Source: Branchipolynoe longqiensis (Eukaryota > Annelida > Polychaeta > Phyllodocida > Polynoidae). Taken from it: a stretch of DNA of 64,000 nucleotides. Positions 2,987 to 60,781 of this stretch are shown piece by piece. The notes under the pieces are model-generated. The model made no database searches and had not been told where the DNA came from. It saw only the letters and a program-made list of their open reading frames with translations. The stretch is taken from contig CM059187.1 in NCBI GenBank assembly GCA_030323885.1, positions 82,606,027 to 82,670,026 of the forward strand, written 5' to 3'. How positions within the stretch are numbered: position 1 is the first letter of the stretch; each line of letters begins with the position of its first letter. A program made the translations under genes and the position numbers.

Positions 2987-3111
2987 GATATACTGAACAG
3001 ATGGGATCGGCGCTGAGATCAGGTCATGAATGATAGTTAATATTGAGAGCACCTCCCAGTCATGTGACATTCAGGTGCTGTGCCTGCCATAACAGCCGAT
3101 GTGGGTGGCAA

Positions 3112-6100
3112 AGGTGTGTGTGAGTGTGTGAGTGTGTGCGAGAATATGTGTGAGGGTGTATGCCTGATTGTGTGCGAGTGGGTGGTTGTGAGTGGGTGTG
3201 TGAGTGGGTGTGTGAGTGGGTGTGTGAGTGGATGTGTAAGTGTGTGTGAGTGGGTGGGTGAATGGGTGTGTGAGTGGGTGTGTGAGTGGGTGTGTGAGTG
3301 GATTTGCAAGTGGATTTGCAAGTGGGTGTGTGAGTGGGTATGTGAGTGGGTATGTGAGTGGGTGTGAGTGGGTGTCTGAGTTGTTGTGTGAGTGGGTGTG
3401 AGTGGGTGTGTAAGTAGGTGTGTGAGTGGGTGTCTGAGTTGTTGTGTGAGTGGGTGTGAGTGGGTGTGTGAGCGGGCATGTGAGTGGATGTGTAAGTGGG
3501 TGTGAGTGGGTGTCTGGGTTGTTGTGTGAGTGGGTGTGAGTGGGTGTGTGAGTTGTTATGTGAGTGGGTGTGTGAGTGGGTGTGTGAGTGGATGTGTAAG
3601 TGGGTGTGTGAGTGGGTGTCTGAGTTGTTGTGTGAGTGGGTGTGAGCGGGTCTCTTAGTTGTTGTGTGAGTGGGTGTGAATGGGTGTGTAAGTGGGTGTG
3701 TGAGTGGGTGCCTGAGTTGTTGTGTGAGTGGGTGTGAGTGGGTGAGTGAGTGGGTGTGTGAGTGGATGTGTGAGTGGGTGTGTCAGTGGGTGAGTGAGTG
3801 GGTATGTGAGTGGATGTGTAAGTGGGTGTGATTGGGTGTCTGAGTTGTTGTGTGAGTTGGTGTGAGTGGGTGTCTGAGTTGGTGTGTGAGTGGGTGTGAG
3901 TGGGTGTGTGAGTGGGTGTGTGAGTGGGTGGCTGAGTTGGTGTGTGAGTGGGTGGGTGAGTGGGTGTGTGACTTGTTGTGTGAGTGGCGGTGTGAGTGGG
4001 TGGGTGAGTGGGTATGTGAGTGGATGGATAAGTGGGTGTGTGAGTTGTTGTCTGAGTGGGTGTGAGTGGGTGTGTGAGTGGATGTGTGAGTGGGTGTGTG
4101 AGTGGGTATGTGAGTGGGTATGTGAGTGGATGTGTAAGTGGGTGTCTGAGTGGGTGTCTGAGTTGTTGTGTGAGTGGGTGTGAGTGGGGGTCTGAGTGGG
4201 TGGGTGAGTTGTTGTGTGGGTGGTTGAGTGGGTATGTGAGTGGGTGTGTAAGTGGGTGTGAGTGGGTGTCTGAGTTGTTGTGTGAGTGGGTGTGAGTGGG
4301 TGTCTGAGTGGGTGGGTGAGTTGATGGGTAAGTGGGTGTGAGTGGGTGGGTGAGTGGTTGTGTGAGTGGATGTGTAAGTGGGTGTGTGAGGTGTTGTGTG
4401 AGTAGGTGTGTGAATTGTTGTGTGAGTGGGTGTGAGTGGGTGTCTGAGTTGTTGTGTGAGTGGGTGTGAGTGGGTGTGTAAGTGGGTGTGTGAGTGGGTG
4501 TCTGAGTTATTGTGCGAGTGGGTGTGTAAGTGGGTGTGTGAGTGGCTGTCTGAGTTGTTGTGTGAGTGGGTGTGAGTGGGTGTGTGAGTGGGTATGTGAG
4601 TGGATGTGTAAGTGGGTGTATCAGTGGGTGTCTGACTTGTTGTGTGAGTGGGTGTGAGCAGGTGTCTGAGTTGTTGTGTGAGTGGGTGTGAGTGGGTGTC
4701 TAAGTGGGTGTGTGAGTGGGTGTCTGAGTTGTTGTGAGAGTGGGTGTGAGTGTGTGAGTGAGTGTGTGAGTGGATGTGTGAGTGGGTGTGTGTGTGGGTG
4801 AGTGAGTGGGTATGTGAGTGGATGTGTAAGTGGGTGTGTGAGTGGGTGTCTGAGTTGTTGTGTGAGTGGGTGTGAGTGGGTGTCTGAGTTGTTGTGTGAG
4901 TGGGTGTGAGTGGGTGTGTAAGTGGGTGTGTGAGTGGGTGTATGAGTTGTTGTGTGAGTGGGTGTGTAAGTGGGTGTGTGAGTGGGTGTCTGAGTTGTTG
5001 TGTGAGTGGGTGTGAGTGGGTGTGTGAGCTGGTGTGTGAGTGGATGTGTAAGTGGGTGTGTGAGTGGGTGTCTGAGTTGTTGTGTGAGTGGGTGTGAGCG
5101 GGTCTCTGGGTTGTTGCGTGAGTAGGTGTGAGTGGGTGTGTAAGTGGGTGTGTGAGTGGGTGTCTGAGTTGTTGTGTGAGTGGGTGTGAGTGGGTGTGTG
5201 AGTGGGTGTGTGAGTGGGTGTGAGTGGGTGTGTGAGTGGGTGTGTGAGTGGGTGTGTGAGTGGGTGGCTGAGTTGGTGTGTGAGTGGGTGGGTGAGTGGG
5301 TGTGTGAGTTGTTGTGTGAGTGGGTGTAAGTGGGTGTGTGAGTGGGTGTCTGAGTTGTTGTGTGAGTGGGTGTGTAAGTGGGTGTCTGAGTGGGTGTCTG
5401 AGTTGGTGTGTGAGTGGGTGTGAGTGGGTGTGTGAGTGGGTATGTGAGTGGATGTGTAAGTGGGTGTATGAGTGGGTGTCGGAGTTGTTGTGTGAGTGGG
5501 TGTGCGCGGGTGTCTGAGTTGTTGTGTGAGTCGGTGTGAGTGGGAGTCTAAGTGGGTGTGTGAGTGCGTGTCTGAGTTGTTGTGTGAGTGGGTGTGAGTG
5601 CGTGTCTGAGTTGTTGTGTGAGTGGGTGTGAGTGGATGTGTGAGTGGGTGTGTGAGTGGATGGCTGAGTTGGTGTGTGAGTGGGTGTGTGAGTGGGTGTG
5701 TGAGTTGTTGTGTGAGTGGGTGTGTGAGTGGGTCGGTGAGTGGGTATCTGAGTGGATGGATAAGTGGGTGTGTGAGTTGTTGTCTGAGTGGGTGTGAGTG
5801 GGTGTGTGAGTGGATGTGTGAGTGGGTATGTGAGTGGGTATGTGAGTGGATGTGTAAGTGGGTGTCTGAGTGGGTGTCTGAGTTGTTGTGTGAGTGGGTG
5901 TGAGTGGGTGTGAGTGGGTGTCTGAGTGGGTGGGTGAGTTGTTGTGAGACTGGGTATCAGTGGGTGGGTGAGTGGGTATGTGAGTGGATGTGTAAGTGGG
6001 GGTGTGAGTGGTTGTGTGAGTGGGTGTGAGTGGTTGTGTGAGTGGATGCGTGAGTGGGTATGTGAGTGGATATGTGAGTGGATCTGTAAGTGGGTGTCTG

Positions 6101-8234
6101 AGTGAGTGTGTGAGTTGTTGTGTGAGTGGGTGTGAGTGGGTGTCTGAGTGGGTGGGTGAGTTGATGGGTAAGTGGGTGTGAATGGGTGGGTGAGTGGTTG
6201 TGTGAGTGGATGTGTAAGTGGGTGTGTGAGTTGTTGTGTGAGTGGGTGTGTGAGTTGTTGTGTGAGTGGGTGTGAGTGGGTGTCTGAGTTGTTGTGTGAG
6301 TGGGTGTGAGTGGGTGTGTAAGTGGGTATGTGAGTGGGTGTCTGAGTTGTTGTGTGAGTGGGTGTGTAAGTGGGTGTCTGCGTGGGTGTCTGAGTTGTTG
6401 TGTGAGTGGGTGTGAGTGGGTCTGTGAGTGGGTATGTGAGTGGATGTCTAAGTGGGTGTATGAGTGGGTCTCTGAGTTGTTGTGTAAGTGGGTGTGAGCG
6501 GGTGTCTGAGTTGTTGTGTGAGTGGGTGTGAGTGGGTGTCTAAGTGCGTGTGTGAGTGGGTGTCTGAGTTGTTGTGTGAGTGGGTGTGAGTGGGTGAGTG
6601 AGTGTGTGAGTGGATGTGTGAGTGGGTGTGTGAGTGGGTGAGTGAGTGGGTGTGTGAGTGGGTGTGTGAGGGGGTGGCTGAGTTGTTGTGTGAGTAGGTG
6701 TGAGTGGGTGTGAGTGGGTGTGTGAGGGGATGTGTGAGTGGGTGTGTTAGTGGGTATGTGAGTGGGTATGTGAGTGGATGTGTAAGTGGGTGTCTCAGTG
6801 GGTGTCTGAGTGGTTGTGTGAGTGGGTGTGAGTGGGTGTCTGAGTGGGTGGGTGAGTTGTTGTGTGAGTGGGTGTGAGTGGGTGGGTGAGTGGGTATATG
6901 AGTGGATGTGTAAGTGGGTGTGTGAGTTGTTGTGTGAGTGAGTGTGAGTGGGTATGTGGGTGGGTATGTGAGTGGATCTGTAAGTGGGTGTGTGAGTGGG
7001 TGTCTGAGTTGTTGTGTGAGTGGGTGTGAGTGGGTGTCTGATTGGGTGGGTGAGTGGATGGGTAAGTGGGTGTAAGTGGGTGGGTGAGTGGTTGTGTGAG
7101 TGGATGTGTAAGTGGGTGTGTGAGTTGTGGTTTGAGTGGGGGGGTGAGTTGTTGTGTGAGTGGGTGTGAGTGGGTGTCTGAGTTGTTATGTGAGTGGGTG
7201 TGAATGGGTGTGTAAGTGGGTGTGTGAGTGGGTGTCTGAGTTGTTGTGTGAGTGGGTGTGAGTGGGTGTGAGTGGGTGTCTGATTGGGTATGTGAATGGA
7301 TATGTAAGTGGGTGGGTGAGTGTGTGTCTGAGTTGTTGTGTGAGTGGGTGTGAGCGGGTGTCTGAGTTGTTGTGTGAGTGGGTGTGAGTGGGTGTGTAAG
7401 TGGGTGTGTGAATTGGTGTCTGAGTTGTTGTGTGAGTGGGTGTGAGTGGGTGAGTGAGTGGGTGTGTGAGTGGATGTGTGAGTGGGTGTGTGAGTGGGTG
7501 AGTGAGTGGGTATGTGAGTGGATGTGTAAGTGGGTGTGTGAGTGGGTGTCTTAGTTGTTGTGTGAGTGGGTGTGAGTGGGTGTCTGAGTTGTTGTGTGAG
7601 TGGGTGTGAGTGGGTGTGTGAGTGGGTGTGTGAGTGGGTGGCTGAGTTGTTGTGTGAGTGGGTGTGTGAGTGGCTGTGTGCGTTGTTGTGTGAGTGGGTG
7701 TGTGAATGTGTGGGTGAGTGGTTATGTGAGTGGATGGGTAAGTGGGTGTGTGAGTGGGTATGTGAGTGGGTATGTGAGTGGATGTGTAAGTGGGTGTCTG
7801 AGTGGGTGTCTGAGTTGTGTGAGTGGGTGTGAGTGGGTGTCTGAGTGGGTGTCTGAGTTGTTGTGTGAGTGGGTGTGAGTGGGTGGGTGAGTGGGTATGT
7901 GAGTGGATGTGTAAGTGGGTGTGTGAGTTGTTGTGTGAGTGGGTGTGTGAGTGGGTATGTGAGTGGGTATGTGAGTGGATCTGTAAGTTGGTGTCTGAGT
8001 GGGTGTCTGAGTTGTTGTGTGAGTGGGTGTGAGTGGGTGTCTGAGTGGGTGGGTGAGTGGATGGGTAAGTGGGTGTGAGTGGGTGGGTGAGTGGGTATAT
8101 GAGTGGATGTGTGAGTGGATGTGTAAGTGGGTGTGTGAGTTGTTGTGTGAGTGGGTGTGTGAGTTTGTGTATGAGTGGATGTGTGAGTGGGTGTGTACGT
8201 TGTTGTGTGAGTGGGTGTGAGTGGGTGTGTGAGT
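3112..8234. repeat. 5.1-kb G/T-rich minisatellite, 12-bp unit, higher-order structure
   Basis: Tandem copies of GTGTGTGAGTGG with recurring variants (TGTCTGAGTTGT, TATGTGAGTGGA, TGTGTAAGTGGG) and occasional 10-bp units. Variant order repeats: matching strings start near 3862, 5588 and 7566, and others near 4460 and 6300, giving a higher-order period of about 1.7-2.0 kb. A 12-bp unit is four codons, so frames stay open: VCEW or CVSG on plus, H/T/P/S-rich on minus (up to 764 codons at 5957-8251). No initiation, splice or composition evidence supports a protein. Regular GGG runs could form G-quadruplexes. Confidence 0.95.
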
Positions 8235-8344
8235 AGCCACATGTATGTCAATAACCATACTAAGTTTAGTCATCAAGAGCCATCAGTGCAAAGTCAGTTT
8301 AAAGTGATGCGACTGTAGCGACGGATCGAGCCTGGGAGTGGCAC

Positions 8345-8470: not shown

Positions 8471-8937
8471 TTGTCACAATGTCTACTAAATTACCCAGCA
8501 TTCCATGCTGCTTGAACAAGCAGAACTAGGAATACCCATATTGACCAAATAGAGGGTAAATATATGTTTTTAGTTTTCTTTTAACCTAAGAAAAACGTTA
8601 CTTGGAAAGGATTCGTCATAAATAGGAAAGGGATGCTATATATTTTCTTTAAAGTGCTCACTTTATTCTTCAACATTCCTGGAAAGGAGCCGCTTAGACA
8701 GGTAGGCTTGGATAGAGTGATTGCATCAGGGAGCTTAGGTAGGGTAAGAGTTAGCACAAGACTGGTAAGAAGGGTGGGTTACTTCTAATCTTCTTCTAGG
8801 TACAATATTTCCCATTTTCATCACCTCCCATGACATTGTGGGGGAATGATAGCTTGGCATATGGCGCATAATTTCAAATGGTGGTTAATTCGACGGAAAG
8901 CCGGTGCTGACCCCTGGATGCTATTCTGAACACTAAA
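8471..8937. other. No gene seen
   Basis: Unique-looking intergenic or intronic DNA. The only recognisable piece is a stretch near 8694-8830 that distantly resembles the tRNA-bearing LTR of the TRIM-like element (GACAGGTAGG..., GGGAGCTTAGGTAGGG, ATTTCCCATTTTCATCACC), probably a decayed solo LTR. Confidence 0.45.
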
Positions 8938-10890: not shown

Positions 10891-11410
10891 AAGGGAAGCA
10901 CAGGCATGCACAAGAAGAACCGCTCAATTTGAAAGCATTCTTTGTATATAGGAAATAAAGAGAGGGGGGCGGGAACAGTTCCATCATACCACACATATAT
11001 AGCACACCGCGCTAACTGAACCACATATATGTGCATTCAGGAATAGTCCTAAATAACTTGTTGTGCCAATACCGATCAAAATAGCTTTGAACCTACTCCG
11101 TTAATGACATTTCAGCGATGGCCTTATTGACTAGAGAAATAACTTTAGTTGGAAAGAATATTGCATCAGGCGCACTGGAATGGATATTCGTCTAATTTAC
11201 CGGGATTTAGATTTTACATCTCTTTTGAGGTCAATTACAGTCGGTCTATTATGTATGTCGTGTGCTACACTGCTATTAAAACCAACACCGTGCACACACT
11301 ATTTGCTAGACATACCTGAACAGCCGGTAAGCACAAACTAATGGAAGTTAGCCCTTTATAGCGGATACATAAAAGGTTGGAGCATTCAATCCTTATTGGG
11401 TTGGTATTGT
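10891..11410. other. No gene seen
   Basis: AT-rich, no repeat recognised and no coding signal. Confidence 0.4.
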
Positions 11411-11740
11411 TTGCTGGTGTTTTACGTCCTGGCAACATCTAATGTCATATTACGACGGGTACCGACTCGTGACAGTGCACGCGAATAGCAGCTATATAGT
11501 CCTGCCCCACTGGGAGACCAGGCCTCCAGTACAATTACCTGATATCCCACTCAGTCAGAGTATCCTGACACTGTACAAACCAGTCATTGTACTTTCCTAA
11601 TAATGCCGAGCACCTGGCTAAGAATCGACAAGTATCAATTCTTAAGTCATTGGTTTGAGTTGACCAGGGTTCGAACCCATGCGTTCAAATCCCACGATCT
11701 ACCAAAACGGGAGACGGACGCTCAGCTCCTTCGGGTATCC
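11411..11740 (-). mobile_element. SINE-1 copy, near full length
   Basis: The minus-strand head has GAGCGTCCGTCTCCCGTTTTGG with two B-box-like GGGTTCGAAC stretches; the tail CCAGGACGTAAAAC is present at 11415-11430. The TRIM-like element begins 11 bp beyond its head. Confidence 0.8.
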
Positions 11741-11827
11741 TGGTTGGTATTGTAGTGGTCTGCACTGACCTCTCAGGCAAGTAACCACATAGACAGGTAG
11801 GCGTGGGGAGTGTATTGATATCAGGGA

Positions 11828-11897
11828 GCCTAGGTGGTGTAATGGTTGGCACACTGGCCCGGAATGAAGAGATGTGGGTTCGAGTCCCGCTCTAGGC
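11828..11897 (+). promoter_or_regulatory. tRNA-Gln-like pol III promoter in the left LTR
   Basis: GCCTAGG and TCTAGGC pair as an acceptor stem; TGGTGTAATGG fits an A box and GGGTTCGAGTCCC is a perfect B box with a T-arm. The D-arm is close to animal tRNA-Gln. The anticodon stem does not pair, so this is not a functional tRNA gene. The same module is at 12147-12218 in the right LTR. Confidence 0.75.
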
Positions 11898-12028
11898 ACA
11901 ATAATTCCCATTTTCATCACCCCCACGACACTGGTTGCCGTGATCAGGATCCTGTACAAGCTTTGCGCTGTATGGTTGTTGAACCTACACTGTGTATGTA
12001 TGTGTTGGTGCATTGCCTGTATGTATGT

Positions 12029-12056
12029 AATTGTAAGCATTACAAGACTTACAATT
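12029..12056 (+). other. Hairpin in the TRIM-like internal domain
   Basis: AATTGTAAG and CTTACAATT pair around a 10-base loop shortly before the purine tract. Copies 2 and 3 keep AATTGTAA...TTACAATT. Confidence 0.55.
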
Positions 12057-12380
12057 CCAGGGGGACGAGTGTAGTGGTCTGCACTGACCTCTCAGGCAAG
12101 TAACCACATAGACAGGTAGGCGTGGGGAGTGTATTGATATCAGGGAGCCTAGGTGGTGTAATGGTTAGCACACTGGCCCGGAATGCAAAGAGATGTGGGT
12201 TCGAGTCCCGCTCTAGGCGCAGTATTTCCCATTTTCATCACCCCCACGACAGTATCCTCCCTGGGAAGCTACTGACACTGAGTGACAACTAGTATGGCGA
12301 TCTGCCAAATACAGGTTTCTGAATTATTTCCACAGACTATATATATGATGTCCATTTGGTTTTACCACAAACAGGGACAA

Positions 12381-12610
12381 GATCAATAAGAGCTCCCACT
12401 TCCTGTCCGGAAGCTCAGGAGTTCGATACCACGGCGAGTTAAATCAGTGACCTATATAATTGATACCTATCGCACCCTAGCCCGGTACCCAGCATTGTTA
12501 TGATATGACAATGACTCGTTTGCTCGGTATCAGGATATCAGGCAAATTGAGTGACGATGCCAGCGGCCTCGTCTTCCAGTAGAGCAGCACTATAAAGTCG
12601 CAATGAATAC
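12381..12610 (+). mobile_element. SINE-1 copy, diverged, 3' truncated
   Basis: Head remnants (AAGCTCAGGAGTTCGATACC) and body blocks GCAGCACTATAAAGTCGC are recognisable. The tail is lost where the next element begins at the shared string CACTGTCACA. Confidence 0.6.
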
Positions 12611-12953
12611 GCACTGTCACACATCACCGGATTGGAGGAAATGGAAACAAACTGAATAAAGTCCGTTGATAGTCCGGTTTGTGTCCGTACAAGTTTTGAA
12701 CATGCACAAAACTTGGAACGGATGCCACCGGATTGATGTCTACATTTCTTGTCCGGTTTGAGTCTGCTTAGTCCGCTTACCGTCTGTTGGCTATCCGTTC
12801 ATGTCCGTTTCATGCCCGTTTCATGTCCGTTCGTCCAGCGGCCTTTGACCTGACATCGCAACATTTTGACACATTTTAATACATGTTGATACTTATGACG
12901 CCCGGACTAGACAATTCTGTCTGTTGCTCAATCCGGTGATGTGTGATAGGGGC
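12611..12953. mobile_element. MITE family T, copy 1
   Basis: Ends GTCACACATCACCGGATTG and its complement CAATCCGGTGATGTGTGA, followed by TTAA at 12954. The interior has inverted CCGGTTTGTGTCCG and CATGTCCGTTTCATG repeats. Non-coding. Confidence 0.7.
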
Positions 12954-16673: not shown

Positions 16674-17177
16674 TGTAGTGGTCTGCACTGACCTGTCAGG
16701 CAAGGAACCACATAGACAGGTAGGCGTGGGTAGTGTGGTGATATCAAGGAGCCTAGGTGGTGTAATGGTTAGCACACTGGCCTGGAGTGCAACAAGATGT
16801 GGGTTCGAGTCCCGCTCTAGGCGCAATATTTCCCATTTTCATCACCCCCATGACACTGGTTGCCATGATCAGGATCCTGTACAAGCTTTGCGCTGTATGG
16901 TTGTTGAACCTATCCTGTGTATGTATGTGTTAGTGCATTTCCTGTATGTATGTAATTGTAAGCATTAAAAGATTTACAATTCCAGGGGGACGAGTGTAGT
17001 GGTCTGCACTGACCTCTCAGGCAAGGAACCACATAGACAGGTAGGCATGGGTAGTGTGGTGATATCAGGGAGCCTAGATGGTGTAATGGTTAGCACACTG
17101 GCCCGGAGTGCAAAGAGATGTGGGTTTGACTCCCGCGTCTAGGCTCAATATTTCCCATTTTCATCACCCCCACGACA
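16674..17177 (+). mobile_element. TRIM-like element, copy 2
   Basis: LTRs 16674-16855 and 16995-17177 around a 139-bp centre, same order as copy 1: TGTAGTGG start, tRNA-like block, CATGACA/CACGACA ends, then CTGGTTGCCATGATC and AGGGGGACGAG. Flanks TAAA and TAAT may be a 4-bp duplication with one change. No ORF. Confidence 0.78.
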
Positions 17178-25723: not shown

Positions 25724-25899
25724 CTACGCCCGGGGGCCGGGTCAGAAGCGGTTATTATATTATAAGCCGATGAAAGCTTCCCATTTTCGAAACCAAACAC
25801 TTAGCTAGATGTAATCCTCCATATCCGACTTAGATACTGGTGTAATCCTCCATATCCGACTTAGATACAGTTAGGCATATGTTGCAGGCTGGTGCTGCT

Positions 25900-27162
25900 G
25901 TCCTGTGCTGTGCTGTGTTGTGCTGTGGTGTGCTGTGTTGTACTGTTGTGTGTTGTGTTGTGTTGTGATATGTTGTGCTGTATTGTACTGTGGTGTGTTG
26001 TGGTGTGTTGTATTGTGGTGTGGTGTGGTGTGCTGTCATGTGGGGTGATGTAATGTGCTGTCATGGGTTGTACTGTGATGTGATGTGTTGTGTTGTGATG
26101 TGCCGTATTGTGTTGTGATGTGATGTGTTGTGATTTGTTGTGATGTGTTGTGTTGTGATGTGTTGTGATGTGTTGTGTTGTGATGTGATGTGATGTGTTG
26201 TGGTGTGATGTGATGTGTTGTGTTGTGGTGCGATGTTTTGTGATGTGATGTGATGTGATGTGCCCTGCTGTGCTGTGGTGTGTTCTGATGTGTTGTGTTG
26301 TGCTGTGATGTGATGTGTTGTGATGTCCTGTGATGTGATGTGTTGTGGTGTTCTGTGATGTGCTGTGTTGTGATGTGATGTGCTGTGTTGTGTTGTGATG
26401 TGCTGTGTTGTGGTGTGTTGTGCTGTGATGTGATGTGTTGTGATGTGCTGTGATGTGATGTGTTGTGTTGTGCGGTGATGTGGTGTGTTGTGATGTGTTG
26501 TGCTGTGATGTGATGTGTTGCATTGTGCTGTATTGTGTTGTGATGTGATGTGATGTGCTGTGTTGTGCTGTGATGTGCGGTGTTGTGTTGTGTTGTGCCA
26601 CGGTGTGTTGTGTTGTCAGGTGATGTGGTGTGATGTACTGTGATGTGTTGTGATGTGTTGTGCTGTGCTGCGCTGTGATGTGATGTGCTGTGTTGTGTTC
26701 TGCTGTGTTGTGCTGTGCTGTGTTGTGTTGTGTTGTGATGTGATGTGTGTTGATGTGATGTGGTGTGTTATGCTGTGTTCTGATGTGATGTGATGTGTTG
26801 TGTTGTGATGTGATGTGTTGTGATGTGTTGTCTTGTGCTGTGGTGTGCTGTGTTGTGATGTGTTCTGATGTGTTCTGATGTGATGTGATGTGCTGTGTTG
26901 TACTGTGTTGTGTTGTGTTGTGCTGTGCTGTGATTTGTTGTGATGTGATGTGCTGTGTTGTGTTGTGTTGGGCTGGGTTGTGATGTGATGTGCTGTGTTG
27001 TGCTGTGCTGTGTTGTGATGTGCTGTTCTGTGCTGTGATGTGATGTGATGTGCTGGGATGTGCTGAGATGTTTTGTGATATGTTTTGCTGTGCTGTGTTG
27101 TGCTGTGTTGTGCTGTGCTGTGATGTGATGTGCTGTGATCTGATGTGCTGTGCTGTGCTGCT
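25900..27162. repeat. TGTGN pentanucleotide array, 1.26 kb
   Basis: About 250 copies of a 5-bp unit whose first four bases (TGTG) are nearly invariant while the fifth is A, T, C or G. On the minus strand the codons are always CAN, NCA, ANC, CAC and ACA, none of which can be a stop. That explains the 464-codon frame (25861-27255) encoding an H-x-T-x-Q pentapeptide pattern. It is not a gene. Confidence 0.95.
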
Positions 27163-27287
27163 ACATTCAACTCTTGTGTAAGGAAAGCCCATGTCTAGCA
27201 TTTCGGTGCGCACACCAACTATGATTGTGTATGGTGTCATTTCAAATGTCACCAAAGATAACCCTTTTAATTAAATATCACTCCAAA

Positions 27288-28675: not shown

Positions 28676-29519
28676 ACCAGAGAGCGTGTATATAAACAGA
28701 TGAGAGAGACAACTCCCCCCATACTAGAGCATGTAACAGCTGCCGACTGTGGCGCTCCAAGTGGTGGTTGTTGAACAGCTTAAGCATATGGGCAAACCTC
28801 AAGACATTTTCAATGGCAGTGAGCAATCTTCATACAGAAAACATTAAATATCTCTAAAACTACAACACCTAGAAACAAACTGATTGGAATACACATAGAA
28901 AACATGTTTACCAACGAGATTATATTAAATTGATATGGTTAGGCTTCTGGATTTCTATTAATTTTGAATAAAACTGACGTTTTTCACGACGCGTACGGCA
29001 AACTCAAGGCATTGTCAATGGCCTTGAGCAGTCTTCGTACAGAAAAAGTTAAATATCTCTAAAACTACACTACATAGAAACAAACTGTCTGGAACACATA
29101 TAGAAAACATATTTAACAATGAGACTATATTAAATTTACATGGCTAGGGTTCTGAATTTCTATTAATTTTGAATAAAATACACGTTTTGCACTACACGTA
29201 CGGCAAACTCAAGGCATTGTCAATGGCGGTGAGCAATCTTCATACAGAAAACGTTAAATATCTCTAAAACTACACCACATAGAAACAAACCGCTTGGAAG
29301 ACATATAGAAAACATATTTACCAAATGGATTATATTAAATTGATAAGGTTAGGCTTCTGGATTTCTTTTAATTTTGAATAAAAACAAATGTTTTGAATTG
29401 AGCGTACCGGCAAACTCATGGCTTGTTCAACACTAACCGCCAGGAACGCCACTGTAGCCTGTGTTACCGTTTTTCGCGGGAGTTGTCCCTCTCATCTGTT
29501 TATATACACGCTCTCTGGT
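28676..29519. mobile_element. Palindrome-flanked 206-bp satellite element, locus 1
   Basis: Inverted ends start ACCAGAGAGCGTGTATATAA and extend about 42 bp with one mismatch, then about 100 bp imperfectly. Between them are three head-to-tail units of 205-207 bp starting GGCAAACTCAAGGCATTGTC at 28791, 28997, 29202 and (partial) 29409. The unit recurs at 51.7-52.1 kb and 60.1-60.7 kb, where the inverted ends are different sequences. Related architectures (tandem core plus inverted flanks) are known from bivalve mobile elements, but I cannot assign this one. Confidence 0.75.
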
Positions 29520-33809: not shown

Positions 33810-34326
33810 TGTAGTATGCTGCACTGACCTCTCAGGCAAGTAACCACATAGGCAGGTAGGCATGGGTAGTGTGTTGGTATCAGGGAGCCTAGGTGGTGTA
33901 ATGGATAGCACACTGGCCCGGAATGCAAAGAGATGTGGGTTTGAGTCCCGCTCTAGGCGCAATATTTCACATTTTCATCACCCCCATGACACTGGTTGCC
34001 GCGATCATGATCCTGTACAAGCTACACGCTGTATGGTTGTTGAACTTACCGTGTGTATGTATGTGTAAGTGGAATGCCTGAATGTATGTAATTGTAAACA
34101 TTAAATGACCATTTAAAAGACTTACAATTCCAGCGGACGAGTGTAGTAGGATTCACAGACCTCTAAGGCAAGTAACCACATAGACAGGTAGGCATGGGTA
34201 GTGTGTTGATATCAGGGAGCCTAGCTGGTATAATGGTTAGTTAGCACACTGGCCAGGAATGCAAAGAGATGTGGGTTTGAGTCCTGCTCTAGGCGCAATA
34301 TTTCCCATTTTCATCACCCCAATGAC
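33810..34326 (+). mobile_element. TRIM-like element, copy 3
   Basis: LTRs 33810-33991 and 34142-34326 around a 150-bp centre with CTGGTTGCCGCGATC and CAGCGGACGAG. The LTRs differ from each other more than in copy 1 (a duplicated TTAG in the right tRNA-like block, and a worn right end), so it is an older insertion. No clear target duplication. Confidence 0.72.
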
Positions 34327-35245: not shown

Positions 35246-35971
35246 GCGCCTGTCACACCTTACCGGACTGAGGACCGGACACCACCGGACAAAGAATTTT
35301 CTAGTCCGGTGCTGTCCGGTACACAAGATGTATCGAAATGGAGCGTAATTGGGTCAATTGCCGCTGGACAACCGGACAAGTACCATACATGTACCATACA
35401 TGTACCGGACGAGTACCGGATGAGAACTGGATGGAACGACCATCAACCGGACACATACCGGACTATATTTTTAGGATTTTCTTGGTATTGTCGTGGGGGT
35501 GATGAAAATGGGAAATATTGCGCATAACACGGGACTCGAACCCACATCTTTTTGCATTCTGGGCCAGTGTGCTAACCATTACACCAACTAGGCTCCCTGA
35601 TATCAACACACTACCCATGCATACCTGTCTATGTGGTTACTTCAGTGCCGACTACTACAGTATATATATATTTTATTGACGTTCTCGCCACCGGACAATT
35701 CCGGAAGCAAACCGGACACCAACGGATAGGTACCGGACACCACCGGATGGGTACCGGACACGTACGGATGGGTACCGGACATGAACCGGACACCAACCGG
35801 ACACGTCAGGCCGGTGGTGTCCAGTAGAAGTTTTGTGCATGTTCAAAACTTGTACCGGACACCGCCGGACACTGCCGGATGGGTACCGGACATGTACTGG
35901 ACATCGCCGTACACCACCGGACAGTGTCCGGTTCTCGTCCGGTACCCCAGTCCGGTAAGGTGTGACTGGCC
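35246..35971. mobile_element. MITE family T, copy 4, with solo LTR inside
   Basis: A clean TTAA duplication brackets GCGCCTGTCACACCTTACC and its complement GGTAAGGTGTGACTGGC. The interior is packed with ACCGGACAC-type motifs. A solo TRIM-like LTR sits at 35489-35659. Confidence 0.8.
35489..35659 (-). mobile_element. Solo LTR of the TRIM-like element
   Basis: Minus-strand copy running TGTAGTAG to CCACGACA with the tRNA-like block, bounded on both sides by GTAT (35485-35488 and 35660-35663). A single LTR with a 4-bp duplication is what LTR-LTR recombination leaves; a SINE monomer would not be expected to do this. Confidence 0.8.
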
Positions 35972-37009: not shown

Positions 37010-37269
37010 TTAAGTGTGTGCATGTGTGTCAGTGTCTGGGTGGGAGGTGCATGATGGGTATACTGTCCTCCACGATACATAGTTGTGTTCGATTGGTCTG
37101 GAGGCTACATGTAGCTGTGTATGAAGAGAGCTTGGACTAAATAAAGATAACTTCTCTACTGACATGTAGGCATCTATGTACTCACTACCTAAACTTCTGG
37201 TTGTGCGGTGAGTATCGCCAGCTAGGGATGTATGCCAAATGGGGAATTGTCATGCATCACCGTGGGCCT

Positions 37270-37760
37270 CTAATTATTACCCATGTTAAGGGTTGCTTAG
37301 CAGCCTTCATGATGCGACATCTGCGTTCAATCATGAGGCTAACCTGGAAGGACAAAGTGACAAATAAGGAAATACTCAAACCAACGGGGCTGCCCTCTAT
37401 GGAAGATCTTCTGATCAAAAAGAATCTCCGGTGGACTGGACAACTCATGAGGATGTCATCAGACAGGCTACCAAAGCAGATCCTCTATTCTCAACTGTCT
37501 TCTGGCTATAGAAATAGAGGGCGCCCTCGTCTCTGGTTCAAGGATACCATCAAGAGAAGCCTGAAGCTGAAAGACATTAAGACCGACTCATGGATGCAAC
37601 TCTCACAGCAGAGAGCTAAATGGAGAGCGGCAGTCAAGTAATGAAAGCAGTCTTTGTCGCATCCCAACCGACAGCATGATGAGCAACCGGCCCTACATAT
37701 GATGTGCAGCATTACCGACATGTATCAGTAAGCACAAGCAAGAATTCCTAGAATAATACT
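37270..37760 (+). mobile_element. LINE ORF2 C-terminal fragment
   Basis: The frame ending at 37641 (stop TAA) encodes about 125 residues of the region that follows the reverse transcriptase in a widespread non-LTR family: HMRCLRS-like MMRHLRSIMRLTW, then GLPSMEDLLIKKNLRWTGQL, RMSSDRLPKQILYSQL, RNRGRPRLWFKDTIKRSLK and a final QQRAKWRAAV. Residues before about 37270 no longer resemble the family. It is 5' truncated with an intact C-terminus and a short 3' UTR, as left by incomplete target-primed reverse transcription. It is not an expressed host gene. Confidence 0.8.
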
Positions 37761-51040: not shown

Positions 51041-51700
51041 TCAATCAATCAATCAATAGGATACAGCTATAATAGGCCTTGGACCTGTTAGCCGCTCTTA
51101 CTTAATAGAAATGGAGACAGTTCTTCAAATGTGGTCGATCGTAGCAACTGTCACTGGCTCCAAGATATATGTAATGCTTGACCAGTATGCATCCAGTCGG
51201 GACTTGAAACAGTTCACCGACTCTGCTGCTACGACACTCTCCGGCAGATCATTCCACAGGTCAACCACCCTAAAGCCGAAGAAGTTGTGTCGCAGGTCCA
51301 GTCTGGAGTACCGTTTCCTCAGCTTCAGGGAGTGCCCTCTGGTCCTGGTGTTGGAGTCTCTGATAAGGGGGCTGCCTGTCTTGTAGATACCATGGAGATA
51401 TTTGAATACTTCAATCATATCCCCCCGGGGCCATCTGTAGTACATGCTTGGGATCTTCAAATGACACATACGTTGTTCATAGGGTATTGCATCGAATCCA
51501 TGTACAAGCTTTGTTGCCCTTCTTTGGATCCTCTCAATTGACTCAGCATCCTTCCTGTAGAGTGGTGACCACACAACATTTCCATATTCCAAAAGTGGAC
51601 GTGCAAGGGATGTGTACAGTCTGCACACAACATCCTTGTCTAGGTATGTGTACGATATTCAAATGATAGCCAGTATTCCATTAGCTCTGTTGGCGGTGAT
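51041..51700 (-). mobile_element. CR1-like LINE, 5'-truncated ORF2 and 3' end
   Basis: The minus-strand frame (51125-51628, continuing upstream past one stop) encodes the thumb and C-terminus of a CR1/Jockey-group reverse transcriptase: ANRANGILAII, YTYLDKDVVCRLYTSLARPL, LEYGNVVWSPLYRKD, RRATKLVHGFDAIPYEQRM, RGDMIEVFKYLHGIYK, TRGHSLKL and RVVDLWNDLPESVV. The 3' UTR ends in a (TTGA)n tail at 51041-51058, usual for the group. It is 5' truncated where the satellite element at 51701 begins. Related copies: 55622-55993 and 43504-43700. Confidence 0.88.
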
Positions 51701-52177
51701 GCGGATTCCGAGGGACACCAGTTTGACAGGGACACTTCCATTCAAATGCATTGTTAACTGCCGTGAGCAAATCTTCATACAGAAGCAGTCAAATATCTCC
51801 CAAATTACACCATCTAGAAACAAATCGTTTGGTACACATATAGAAAACATCTTTACCATAAAGACTATATTAAATTTATAAGGTTATGGTTCTTGAATTC
51901 TATTAATTTTGAATAAAACTAACGTTTTGCACTGCGCGTAGCGTCAAACTCAAGGCATTGTCAATGGCCGTAAGCAATCTTCATACAGAAAATACACAAG
52001 AAGTCAAATATCTCTTAAATTACATCATCTAGAAACAAATCGTTTGGTACACATATAGAAAACATCTTTACCAAAAACATTATATTAAATTTATAAGGTT
52101 AGTGATGATGCTGTTCGATTTTGACGCACGTGCAGAAGCGATGTGTCCCTCGCAAACTGGTGTCCCTCGGAATCCGC
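51701..52177. mobile_element. Palindrome-flanked 206-bp satellite element, locus 2
   Basis: Inverted ends GCGGATTCCGAGGGACACC...AGTTTG at 51701-51725 and the complement at 52153-52177, extending with a second AGGGACAC. Between are two units of the satellite seen at 28.8 and 60.1 kb (GAGCAATCTTCATACAG, AAACATCTTTACCA, TATTAAATTTATAAGG, TTTTGAATAAAAC). Its inverted ends share nothing with those of the other loci. The left end touches a truncated CR1 fragment. Confidence 0.72.
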
Positions 52178-53276: not shown

Positions 53277-53620
53277 AGTTGCATAGTCCGATGGTTTTGA
53301 ATTTCTGTATTTTTTCTGAGATAAATATATTAGATCGATCACTAGTATCTACTTTACATTAGTTTAAAGTTATTTTTATTTTAAATGGTAAACTTTTGAG
53401 ATATTTTGGGTGCAAACATGGAAAATTAGTTTTGGCAAGCTTGCCAAAACTCTGACACCATAGACTTCTGCAATAACAGGTTCTGTTAAATTGACTCAGT
53501 ATTGCCTTCTACACAGAAACACATGCTTAAAAGATGCATCAGTATCTAAGTTAGATATGTAAAATCAAATCTAGATATTTGGTTTGGTTTTGAAAATTTG
53601 ATATTTCATCGGACTAAGCT
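53277..53620. mobile_element. MITE family B, copy 6
   Basis: TTAA, AGTTGCATAGTCCGATGG, to CATCGGACTAAGCT, TTAA. Inverted relative to copy 1; contains AGTTTTGGCAAGCTTGCC. Confidence 0.8.
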
Positions 53621-55621: not shown

Positions 55622-55993
55622 TTTCAATCAATAGGATACAGCTATAATAGGCCTTGGACCTGTTAGCCACTCTTAATTAATAGAAATGGAGACAGTTCTT
55701 CAGATGTGGTGGATCATAGCAACTGTCACTGGCTCCAAAATATATGTAATGCTTGACCAGTATGCATCCAGTCGGGACTTGAAACATTTCACCAATTCCG
55801 CTGCTACGACACTCTCCGGCTGGTCATTCCACAGGTCAACCACCCTAAAGCCGAAAAAGTTGTGTCGCAGGTCCAGTCTGGATTACAGCTTCCTCAGCTT
55901 CAGGGAGTGTCCCTTGGTCCTGGTGTTGGAGTTTCTGATAAGGGGGCTGCCTGTCTTGTAGATACAATGGAGATATTTGAATACTTCAATCAT
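55622..55993 (-). mobile_element. CR1-like LINE 3' fragment
   Basis: Closely matches 51045-51420 from the AATCAATAGG tail through the C-terminal coding region (same RHNFFGFRVVDLWND-type frame), then stops at a poly-C run (55995-56009). Confidence 0.82.
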
Positions 55994-56599: not shown

Positions 56600-57690
56600 A
56601 CCGGTATGGGATGGTGAATGCCCACTCCTAGTGGCGCCACATAAGAGCAATCTTTGCCACAACACATAGAGCTAATGGAGTTAGTTATATATAGATAGCA
56701 GTCTACTGGATATAGTTTTACTGTTTATATTCCCATAACTTCATCATACAGCACATACATAAATAATGTATGAAGTTTAACATCCGTCCCACAGTGACGG
56801 TATATAATTATGTTGGCGTTTCGCGTTTGGCCGCGCGCTGAGGGTGTCAGCGGCGAGAAGAGGAACTAGCGTCAACAAATGCAAGGTGGCTTGTCCTTTG
56901 TTTACACTCCAATAATAGAACCTATATATTGCAGGTGGATACATATACATTATGCATACCAATATATATATATCCATATGTGTTTTTTATATTAATAAAT
57001 TACTATATAGATGTGGATTAGATGCATATCACTGCATATCGCATGACGTCACAGACAGTGTATAAATTTATTGAGTGGGGTGTCATTCAAATATGAGAAA
57101 AAATAGTCCCTATGAAAAACATTAAGGATAGTAAATTTGAGTATCGTGAAAAGCAGAAGTGGGACAAATGACTATTACCCCCATCTGTGTATATGCATTG
57201 AAAAAGGCGCTAATATCAACTTCATATAACATCAACACCAAAAACTACAGCTGGCCAGCATTGAAAACAAGCCTGGGTACCCGGGCTTACATGCTATGGA
57301 CAGTATAAATACAGCCTCAATAAAAAAAATATATATAGTGGTTGTTTATTGTAAGCGACCAGGTAATATGTAACTAATATATAAGTCAGAAGAGTGACCT
57401 TAGATGTTGCCATGCTGTAAAACCCCAACAACCAATCAATCAAGTTCCACCGGTCCCTCAGGAAGCACACTACCTGGGACCCAGTATGTCGGCCCGCAGC
57501 TTCAGCTTACACACAGAAGGGGGTGGGTGGCGGGGGGCAGGGGGCTGCAGCGGGTGGGTGGTGGAGGGGAGGGATGAGGAGACAGTGAATACACATACAT
57601 CATGACACATGAAGTGAAATTTTATCTCATGTAAAATAGTTGTTAGGACAATTTCACTTTAATCTGCATTGGTCGTAATGCTCGCATTGC
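56600..57690. other. No gene seen
   Basis: AT-rich to 57390; SINE-1 tail fragment at 57393-57441 (GACCTTAGATGTTGCCATGC); inverted repeat Y copy at about 57440-57525; then a G-rich stretch at 57520-57580 (GGGGGTGGGTGGCGGGGGGC) with G-quadruplex potential. Confidence 0.5.
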
Positions 57691-57850
57691 GTTTGATGCG
57701 AGGAAAGGAAGAGACCCTCCCCCCGCCTGTCCTGCCGTCGCGCAGCTTTCTCACCTGCCCTGTCATCCGCCCCTCAGCTTTCTCCCGTGCCCCTCGCCCT
57801 GCCCCGCCGCTTTCTCACCTCCCCTGCCCTCGCCGTTCAGCTCCCTCCCT

Positions 57851-57880
57851 TATAAGGCCGCCCGCCGGCCTCCCTCAGTC
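57851..57880 (+). promoter_or_regulatory. TATA box and initiator of the DIRS-like element
   Basis: TATAAGG at 57851-57857 with CTCAGTC, an initiator-like motif, 23-29 bp downstream. It is preceded by duplicated GCTTTCTCACCT stretches. The gag ATG lies about 100 bp further on. Confidence 0.55.
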
Positions 57881-57973
57881 ACTCGCCTTCCAGCCGTCCT
57901 CCCTGCAGCACCAATTTCTGCTTTGGCTACCTTCACCTCGGACTGCTCCAACACCCTCGGGCCGACCCACATC

Positions 57974-59116
57974 ATGCCTGGAAACGGCAAAGGCAAAGGA
58001 CGCAAGGGAGCCCGGACAACCGCCGTGGGCACGCCGGGACCCTCCTCGGGCACGGCGGGAGGCGCCTCACCTGCCTCGGCCCCGGGTTCCCCTCCGGCAC
58101 CTAGGGACCGACCCTCGGGCACTGACGCCGCCATACTCCAGGCACTGCAGCAGATAACCAGCCGCCTGGACGTCCTCGAGTGCGGGGCCGCCCTCGGGAC
58201 CCAGGAGACCCCCCCGCCCGCGCCGAGGCGGTGGCCGGCCTACAGCTCGCCGCCCATCCCAGCACCTCGGGCGCACGTCCTCGGGGGGGCTCACCCTCTG
58301 CTGCCACCTCAAGCGCCGCTCCCGGGGGCGGTCCACCCGCAGTATGAGCGCTATAGCCGCCTTACTGCGCAGTCGTCGGCCGCCCCGCCCCCGGCCTACC
58401 TCCAGGAGGCCGTCGACCATACCCCGGCATCAGCGGCCGACGCCGTAAGAGAGATCCTGGCGTCGGCCGAGGCGCACCACACCGGGAGAAGAAAGGGTAT
58501 CTCCCCCGACTACCTCTTCCCCTCTGACCTCGTGGAAACGGGGCCTGAACGCAAGTCGGTAAAGAGGGGCGAGGCCACCAAAGACGAGTACAGCCTCACC
58601 CTCACCACCCTCGTCAGCCACCCAAGCTTCCCTGCACACTCCCTGCCAGGCCTGCACCACCACACCCTCACCGTGCTCAGGGACAACCTGGTCTATCCGT
58701 GGCCTACCGTCCGCTGGTACTCGGAGACGATCTTCACCTGGATCGCGGACGGCAGGCTCCCCCACGTATGGCATGATCCGGTTGCCCTGAACCTGGTGAG
58801 AATGGAGGTTCTCACCATGCCGCCCCCCAGGCCGTCCCGACAGTACCAGCCCCCCGAGGCGCGGACCTTCCCCGAGGCGCACAGCAGCCCCGGACCGAAG
58901 CCGACACCCGCATCACCTACAACCGAGAGGCTCACGGGGCTCCCTGCGCCGCCTGGAACCGCGAGCCCACCTCGTGCGATCGGGCCCCTGTCGGCATTCT
59001 CACCATGCACAGCGAGGCCCTGTGCCTCACCAAGCAAGCCCGTGAGCGCTAGACCCCGGCCGCCTCGGCGGATTTTTGACCCACAGGCCTCCCCCGGCCG
59101 GCCCGGGGGGCCATAA
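57974..59116 (+). CDS. gag-like protein of the DIRS-like element, 380 codons, 3' frameshifted
   Basis: I start at the first ATG in frame (57974), downstream of the TATA/initiator; the frame is open upstream to 57923 without an ATG. Residues 1-20 are basic (GKGKGRKG); a Pro/Ala-rich stretch holds a short helix (AAILQALQQITSRLDVLE). The conserved-looking core, about residues 155-275, includes DAVREILASAEAHH, SPDYLFPSDLV, KDEYSLTLTTLV and TVRWYSETIFTWIADGRLPH, resembling the gag domain of DIRS-group elements. Another frame at 58900-59010 encodes PCAAWNREPTSC then CRHSHH, a CCCH-like finger that should end this protein. Small indels near 58870 and 58987 have moved it out of frame, so the C-terminus given here is probably not original. 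Confidence 0.65.
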   Translation: MPGNGKGKGRKGARTTAVGTPGPSSGTAGGASPASAPGSPPAPRDRPSGTDAAILQALQQITSRLDVLECGAALGTQETPPPAPRRWPAYSSPPIPAPRAHVLGGAHPLLPPQAPLPGAVHPQYERYSRLTAQSSAAPPPAYLQEAVDHTPASAADAVREILASAEAHHTGRRKGISPDYLFPSDLVETGPERKSVKRGEATKDEYSLTLTTLVSHPSFPAHSLPGLHHHTLTVLRDNLVYPWPTVRWYSETIFTWIADGRLPHVWHDPVALNLVRMEVLTMPPPRPSRQYQPPEARTFPEAHSSPGPKPTPASPTTERLTGLPAPPGTASPPRAIGPLSAFSPCTARPCASPSKPVSARPRPPRRIFDPQASPGRPGGP

Positions 59117-59999: not shown

Positions 60000-60781
60000 T
60001 AGACCTATTTCATATGACGTCAGCATTGGTATCTAGGTCAGTGCACGCGCCTCTTGGCTGCAGGACGACACACTGATACACTGTCACACTGCAAACTCAA
60101 TGGCTATGAGCAATCTTCATAGAGAAAAGGTGAAATATCTCTAAAACTACACCACCTAGAAACAAACTGCATGGTACAAATATAGAAAACATATTCAACG
60201 AATAGATTATATTAAATTTATACGCTAGGGTTCTACCTTGCTATTAATTTTGAATAAAATAGGCGTTTTGCACAGCGCGTACCGGCAAACTCAATATGCA
60301 TTGTCAATGGCCGTGAGCAACCTTCCTACAGAAAAAGTGAAATATCTCTAAAACCACACGACCTAGAAACAAACCGCCTGGTACACATATAGAAAACATA
60401 TTCACCGAATAGATTATATTAAATATATATGGTTAGGATTCTGCATTTCTATTAATTTTGAATAAAATAGACGTTTTGCATGGCGCGTACCGGCAAACTC
60501 AATGCATTGTCAATGGTCATGAGCAATATTCCTACAGAAAAAGTGAAATATCTCTAAAACCATACCACCTAGAAACAAATCGATTGGAACACATATAGAA
60601 AACATATTCAACGAACAGATTATATTAAATTTATATGGTTAGGTTTCCGCATTTCTATTAATTTTGAATAAAATATACGTTTTGCACTGTGCATACCGGC
60701 AAACTCAATGGCAGTGTGCCTTCGTTCTGCAGCCAAGCTGCGCCCGCATACACAATGTTTATAAACATTGAAAGGGGTCTA
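60000..60781. mobile_element. Palindrome-flanked 206-bp satellite element, locus 3
   Basis: Outer inverted ends TAGACC...TTTCA and an inner arm CTTGGCTGCAGGACGACACAC (complement at 60707-60737) flank three satellite units beginning GCAAACTCAATGG at 60090 and repeating with GTGAGCAA, GAAATATCTCTAAAAC, AAACATATTCA and TTTTGAATAAAATA blocks. The core opens and closes at the same CAAACTCAATGG boundary as locus 1, but the inverted ends are unrelated. Confidence 0.75.

Follow-up and report, generated by a model that had tools for sequence, protein, structure and literature searches.

In a 64,000-nucleotide stretch of the Branchipolynoe longqiensis genome (GCA_030323885.1, contig CM059187.1; hereafter the window), we found three complete copies of a short element in which two long terminal repeats (LTRs) enclose a centre in an A-B-A arrangement, together with one solo LTR and one old, diverged LTR. 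Copy 1 lies on the plus strand at 11751-12251, with LTRs at 11751-11930 and 12070-12251 and the centre at 11931-12069. BLASTN of copy 1 against the window gave two full-length plus-strand matches, copy 2 at 16674-17177 (93.1% over 504 positions; LTRs 16674-16855 and 16995-17177) and copy 3 at 33810-34326 (87.1% over 518; LTRs 33810-33991 and 34142-34326), and a minus-strand match to the solo LTR at 35489-35659, all far below the chance level. These coordinates bear out those of a preliminary description made from the sequence, which had also given direct repeats of about 180 bp around a 139- to 150-bp centre. The three elements measure 501, 504, and 517 bases, their centres 139, 139, and 150 bases, and the six LTRs of the complete copies, as cut, 180 to 185 bases; the solo LTR, with an 11-base alignment gap, measures 171. 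The old LTR was absent from the preliminary list. Its aligned part, whose true start is uncertain, covers 8667-8835 on the plus strand with about 73% identity by BLASTN and keeps AATATTTCCCATTTTCATCACC; no internal region and no target duplication were seen around it. The terminal motifs reported earlier hold with two exceptions, both in copy 3. The LTRs begin with TG and end with CA, except the last LTR of copy 3, which ends in GAC with the final A lost. The centre starts with C-TGGTTGCC and ends with a tract interrupted by a C, which reads AGGGGGACGAG in two of the three copies and AGCGGACGAG in copy 3.

Direct reading of the flanks places GTAT on both sides of copy 1 (11747-11750 and 12252-12255). 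The solo LTR is likewise flanked by GTAT, the right-side copy of which runs into a TA repeat, and both duplications, noted before, are exact. Copy 2 is flanked by TAAA and TAAT, with three of the four bases duplicated, and no target duplication was found in the flanks of copy 3. Exact 4-bp duplications are thus present at two of the four insertions examined, among which the old LTR was not counted. With equal base frequencies assumed, the chance of at least two exact 4-mers among four sites is about 1e-4. On the plus strand, TTGGTAT stands directly to the left of both copy 1 (11744-11750) and the solo LTR (35482-35488), which are oppositely oriented; this is either a target preference or a coincidence.

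We also compared the joined flanks of five insertions with the rest of the window, dropping rows of at least 390 bases as self matches. A match spanning the junction turned up within the window for copy 3 only, at 53376-53572 on the plus strand (66.8% over 202 bases). The 60-base right flank of copy 3 alone scored 46 in that region, while the highest of 200 shuffles scored 35. From the match across the junction and the score of the right flank, it follows that copy 3 interrupted a pre-existing repeat, of which 53376-53572 is a diverged relative without the element. A small deletion that removed the last LTR base together with the duplicated bases would explain why copy 3 has no duplication. 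The right flank of copy 3 begins with TGGTT and was considered as a second internal region, which we rejected because the empty-site relative shows it to be flanking DNA.

The window also contains other repeats. Inverted copies of a dispersed repeat flank copy 1 at about 11407-11680 and 12400-12620; relatives of this repeat occupy more than 10 further sites in the window, some on each strand, a distribution that a foldback or MITE-like family would show, and the two literature matches to its motifs were unrelated. Satellite-like units of about 205 bases occur at 28802-29417, 51747-52101, and 60089-60707. Long imperfect simple-repeat tracts at about 3000-8300 and 25860-27270 leave several minus-strand frames open, the former with a strong strand asymmetry (GC skew of 0.91 over 4001-8000). 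A G+C-rich open frame of 489 codons at 57647-59116 had no Pfam match, and none of 7,989 scored candidates passed in a protein search; Pfam likewise returned nothing for eight ORFs of the window. Retrotransposon protein fragments with reverse transcriptase relatives were found at 51125-51658 and 37141-37638, and 51049-51348 is repeated at 55624-55923 with 94% identity. Among the best 120 of 335 protein matches to 51125-51658, four carried an organism name, none of them an annelid; those relatives, among the matches listed, we take to be a sea cucumber, an acorn worm, and two crustaceans. Among the best 120 of 575 matches to 37141-37638, all 15 with an organism name came from Ridgeia piscesae (Annelida, Siboglinidae), and 105 carried no name. 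Since the fragment comes from a mobile-element protein, these matches are a weak hint of an annelid host. By its repeats and protein relatives, the window appears animal-like.

Directly after the first LTR, the element has a putative primer binding site (11932-11952 in copy 1, plus strand). In all three copies, the 21 bases that follow the first centre base are closest to the 3' end of fly tRNA-His, the sequence of which is printed in PMC4260829, among 13 tRNAs, an incomplete set that lacks Leu, Thr, Met, Trp, and others. In copy 1, 18 of 20 tRNA-His positions match, with one inserted T that would bulge. When the sites were shuffled with the first three bases (TGG) fixed, the observed score was reached by 0/1000, 0/1000, and 1/1000 shuffles for copies 1, 2, and 3, respectively. 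The putative polypurine tract of copy 1 (12059-12069, plus strand), read directly, consists of AGGGGGA followed by CGAG, with one interrupting C; it is short and interrupted, and is weaker evidence than the primer site.

Each LTR of copy 1 contains a tRNA-like block on the plus strand. The block of the 5' LTR (11828-11898) matches Rfam RF00005 with 42.7 bits, and that of the 3' LTR (12147-12220) was found by ARAGORN and by Rfam RF00005, with 47.1 bits. Rfam scored the tRNA model above the gathering score in six of seven LTRs, including the solo LTR (33.2 bits), and the seventh reached 19.6 against a cutoff of 29. The old LTR at 8667-8835 gave no tRNA match in Rfam up to an E value of 5, and across the window Rfam at gathering scores reported tRNA only and no 5S rRNA. 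ARAGORN labels three of the LTR blocks tRNA-Ser, while among the 13 tRNAs compared the closest was human tRNA-Gln for the three blocks tested, the 3' block of copy 1 among them. That 3' block folds no better than its shuffles (z of -0.84; 33 of 200 as good).

Downstream of each block lies a run of four Ts (T4), at 11911-11914 in the 5' LTR and 12232-12235 in the 3' LTR of copy 1, both on the plus strand. The run is kept in all eight LTRs, the old one included, and TTTCCCATTTTCATCACC surrounds it in all eight, six times exactly and twice with one mismatch. Each of the three complete copies has exactly one plus-strand T4 per LTR and none elsewhere. Two or fewer T4 runs per element are common by chance (69 to 75% of 2,000 shuffles), so it is the position and conservation of the runs, not their number, that argue for them. 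The single T4 per LTR suggests a possible end of a polymerase III (pol III) transcript.

The preliminary description had proposed a terminal-repeat retrotransposon in miniature (TRIM) with a tRNA-like LTR and had known of no such element in an animal. The element is real, but its kind was already described in 2024: Kojima (PMC10886601) reported, under the name Helenus, TRIMs whose LTR contains a tRNA-like sequence, from six animal phyla, fungi, and one plant. As described there, Helenus elements have the tRNA-like sequence in both LTRs, a primer binding site after the 5' LTR, and a polypurine tract before the 3' LTR. They make 4-bp duplications in animals, solo LTRs are known in the group, and some bivalve and vertebrate families are primed by tRNA-His. 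The present element shares the main structural features among these, its polypurine tract being a putative one. Its two-LTR copies of 501, 504, and 517 bases fall within the published range of 311 to 1,263 bases, obtained in a screen for elements below 1,000 bp, and disagreement over tRNA identity, as seen here, is on record for Helenus as well (PMC10886601). The likeness is one of structure, drawn from the published description. The LTR ends, duplications, primer match, and Rfam tRNA hits in six of seven LTRs all fit the structural reading of the preliminary description, and by structure the element very probably belongs to the Helenus kind.

Three other known TRIMs resemble the element in part. 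Cassandra of plants is alike in carrying the promoter of a pol III-transcribed small RNA in its LTR, but that RNA is 5S rRNA (PMC10886601), whereas the present LTRs gave only tRNA at Rfam gathering scores. Ajax of nemerteans is an animal TRIM too and has a pol III-type sequence in its LTR, but differs in its 5S rRNA fragment, 5-bp duplications, and tRNA-Leu primer (PMC10886601). The bivalve biv-TRIM (PMC6934838), as described, has LTRs of similar size (202 to 218 bases) and solo LTRs, but a shorter centre (77 to 80 bases), a polypurine tract of GGGGAGA in most cases, and no clear primer binding site. A literature search on Helenus, TRIM, and retrotransposon returned Kojima 2024 only, and the main text of that paper nowhere uses the word annelid (PMC10886601). 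No annelid TRIM was named in the titles and abstract openings of the literature matches listed, and four short motifs from the LTRs were found in no paper. The present element is thus possibly the first Helenus record for annelids. Two element patterns had 0 loci each in a viral contig collection. A 21-base pattern searched against genome contigs returned five bacterial records with only 17 to 20 bases in common, which we took as chance.

Does the tRNA-like block work as a promoter? The same TRIM might instead rely on pol II, as ordinary LTR elements do, with the block as a passive relic of a SINE insertion. Kojima 2024 (PMC10886601) proposes that Helenus arose when a SINE inserted into the LTR of a TRIM, and states that pol III transcription of Helenus is expected and not validated. 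The state of the boxes points the same way. The preliminary description took both boxes to be intact in every LTR, which is true of part of the set: the B-box GGTTC is kept in four of seven LTRs (both of copy 1, the 5' LTR of copy 2, and the solo LTR) and reads GGTTT in the other three, and four extra bases stand in the A-box region of the 3' LTR of copy 3. In most copies the A box is TGGTGTAATGG, which departs from the literal TRGCY; among published Helenus elements, the box motifs (TRGCY and YGG; GGTTC) are conserved in most, not all (PMC10886601). The old LTR, without a tRNA match, also suits a passive relic.

Conservation divides between the two readings. The comparison is descriptive and covers seven LTRs, a number small enough to make it weak. 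Counted as changes per site per copy, the first 26 bases are the most variable segment (0.115), followed by the B box (0.065), the tRNA-like block (0.052), the rest of U3 (0.048), the tail after the block (0.037), and the A box (0.013). Taken together, the block shows no stronger conservation than U3, and its B box shows less, as expected of a passive relic. Against such a relic, 10 of 11 A-box sites are invariant in the seven LTRs, and Rfam still scores six of seven LTRs as tRNA. On these sequence comparisons, conservation of the A box and of the tail would favour function, and that of the B box would not. We regard transcription by pol II with a passive block as unlikely.

The LTRs themselves bear on whether the element is an LTR element at all. 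When an LTR element inserts, a single template gives rise to its two LTRs, and the LTRs of one element should therefore be the most alike. The two LTRs differ at 2.2% of aligned sites in copy 1, 6.0% in copy 2, and 7.2% in copy 3. Between elements, pairs of 5' LTRs differ by 7.2, 8.3, and 9.3%, and pairs of 3' LTRs by 6.0, 9.4, and 9.4%. Judged by overall distance, the LTR pair is clearly the most similar one for copy 1 alone: the copy 2 pair (6.0%) is tied with the 3' LTRs of copies 1 and 2 (6.0%), and the copy 3 pair (7.2%) with its 5' LTR and the 3' LTR of copy 1 (7.1%). Supports in the LTR tree are moderate (88, 69, and 79). We also looked at informative sites, defined as alignment columns with a base common to exactly two LTRs and at least six of the seven LTRs present, which are more telling for LTR pairing than overall distances. 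Six of the seven such sites unite the LTRs of the same element (three in copy 2, two in copy 1, and one in copy 3), none unites LTRs by position, and one unites the 5' LTR of copy 2 with the solo LTR.

These sites count against a composite SINE, an A-B-A dimer mobilized by a LINE. A SINE dimer would share the tRNA-like head with A and B boxes, its tail could be conserved as the 3' segment is even in the 73% copy, and the overall distances, by which the LTR pairs of copies 2 and 3 are no closer than some pairs taken from different elements, would not contradict it. In a dimer, however, first units should cluster with first units and second with second, opposite to the pairing by element that was found. 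The copies end in GACA (GAC in copy 3) and pass into unlike flanks with no A-rich or simple-repeat tail. They begin with TG and end with CA, have a tRNA-His primer site right after the first unit, and show exact 4-bp duplications at two insertions; at the four insertions examined, no variable, long duplications of the SINE type were found, and duplications, where present, are of 4 bp. The informative sites, ends, duplications, and missing tail together make a SINE dimer very improbable, in line with the earlier remark that such a dimer would be hard to reconcile with the relationship between complete copies and solo LTR.

Our preferred reading is that the element is a Helenus family, a TRIM with a pol III promoter in its LTR, in an animal genome and with the following cycle; we give this combined reading a probability of roughly 0.7. 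Pol III would bind the tRNA-like A and B boxes of the 5' LTR and start transcription near the first base of the block, at about base 77 of the LTR. A fraction of the transcripts would pass the single T4 of the 5' LTR and end at the T4 of the 3' LTR. The resulting RNA would carry the same repeat (R), about 90 bases long, at its two ends, and a U5 of some 16 bases with the tRNA-His primer site directly after it. This RNA would be reverse transcribed from tRNA-His with the enzymes of an autonomous LTR element, probably a Gypsy element, a helper proposed on the basis of Kojima 2024 (PMC10886601). Second-strand synthesis would begin at the AGGGGGA tract, integrase would insert the DNA and create the 4-bp duplication, and recombination between LTRs would leave solo LTRs. 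Of this scheme, the anatomy, the duplications, the match to the primer, and the rare bases common to the LTRs of one element were observed; the polymerase, its start and stop points, and the helper are proposed.

Several observations count against this explanation. A strong first T4 would halt most transcripts upstream of the primer site. Copy 2 has three of four duplicated bases and copy 3 has no duplication. Conservation is lower in the B box than over the whole block, and lowest in the first 26 bases of the LTR. No autonomous partner was seen: in 89 of the 234 ORFs listed in the window, Pfam gave no retrotransposon domain (one marginal match, LMBR1, with an E value of 0.0054); this negative is weak because Pfam also missed the two ORFs with reverse transcriptase relatives.

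The finding enlarges a recently named group, that of TRIMs with a pol III promoter, by one family that perhaps represents a new animal phylum for the group, and it gives a specific, testable idea of where transcripts of such elements start and stop. Since ARAGORN and Rfam call these LTRs tRNA genes, tRNA counts can be inflated, as was reported for Helenus in rust fungi (Kojima 2024, PMC10886601). The fullest version, in which Annelida gain their first known Helenus family and a weak, leaky T4 in each LTR, passed in the 5' LTR by a fraction of transcripts and used in the 3' LTR, sets the R/U5 border, is rather unlikely. If it is true, a leaky terminator would fix the R/U5 border, the role that polyadenylation has in ordinary LTR elements, and a pol III element would have a clean route to an LTR-type template.
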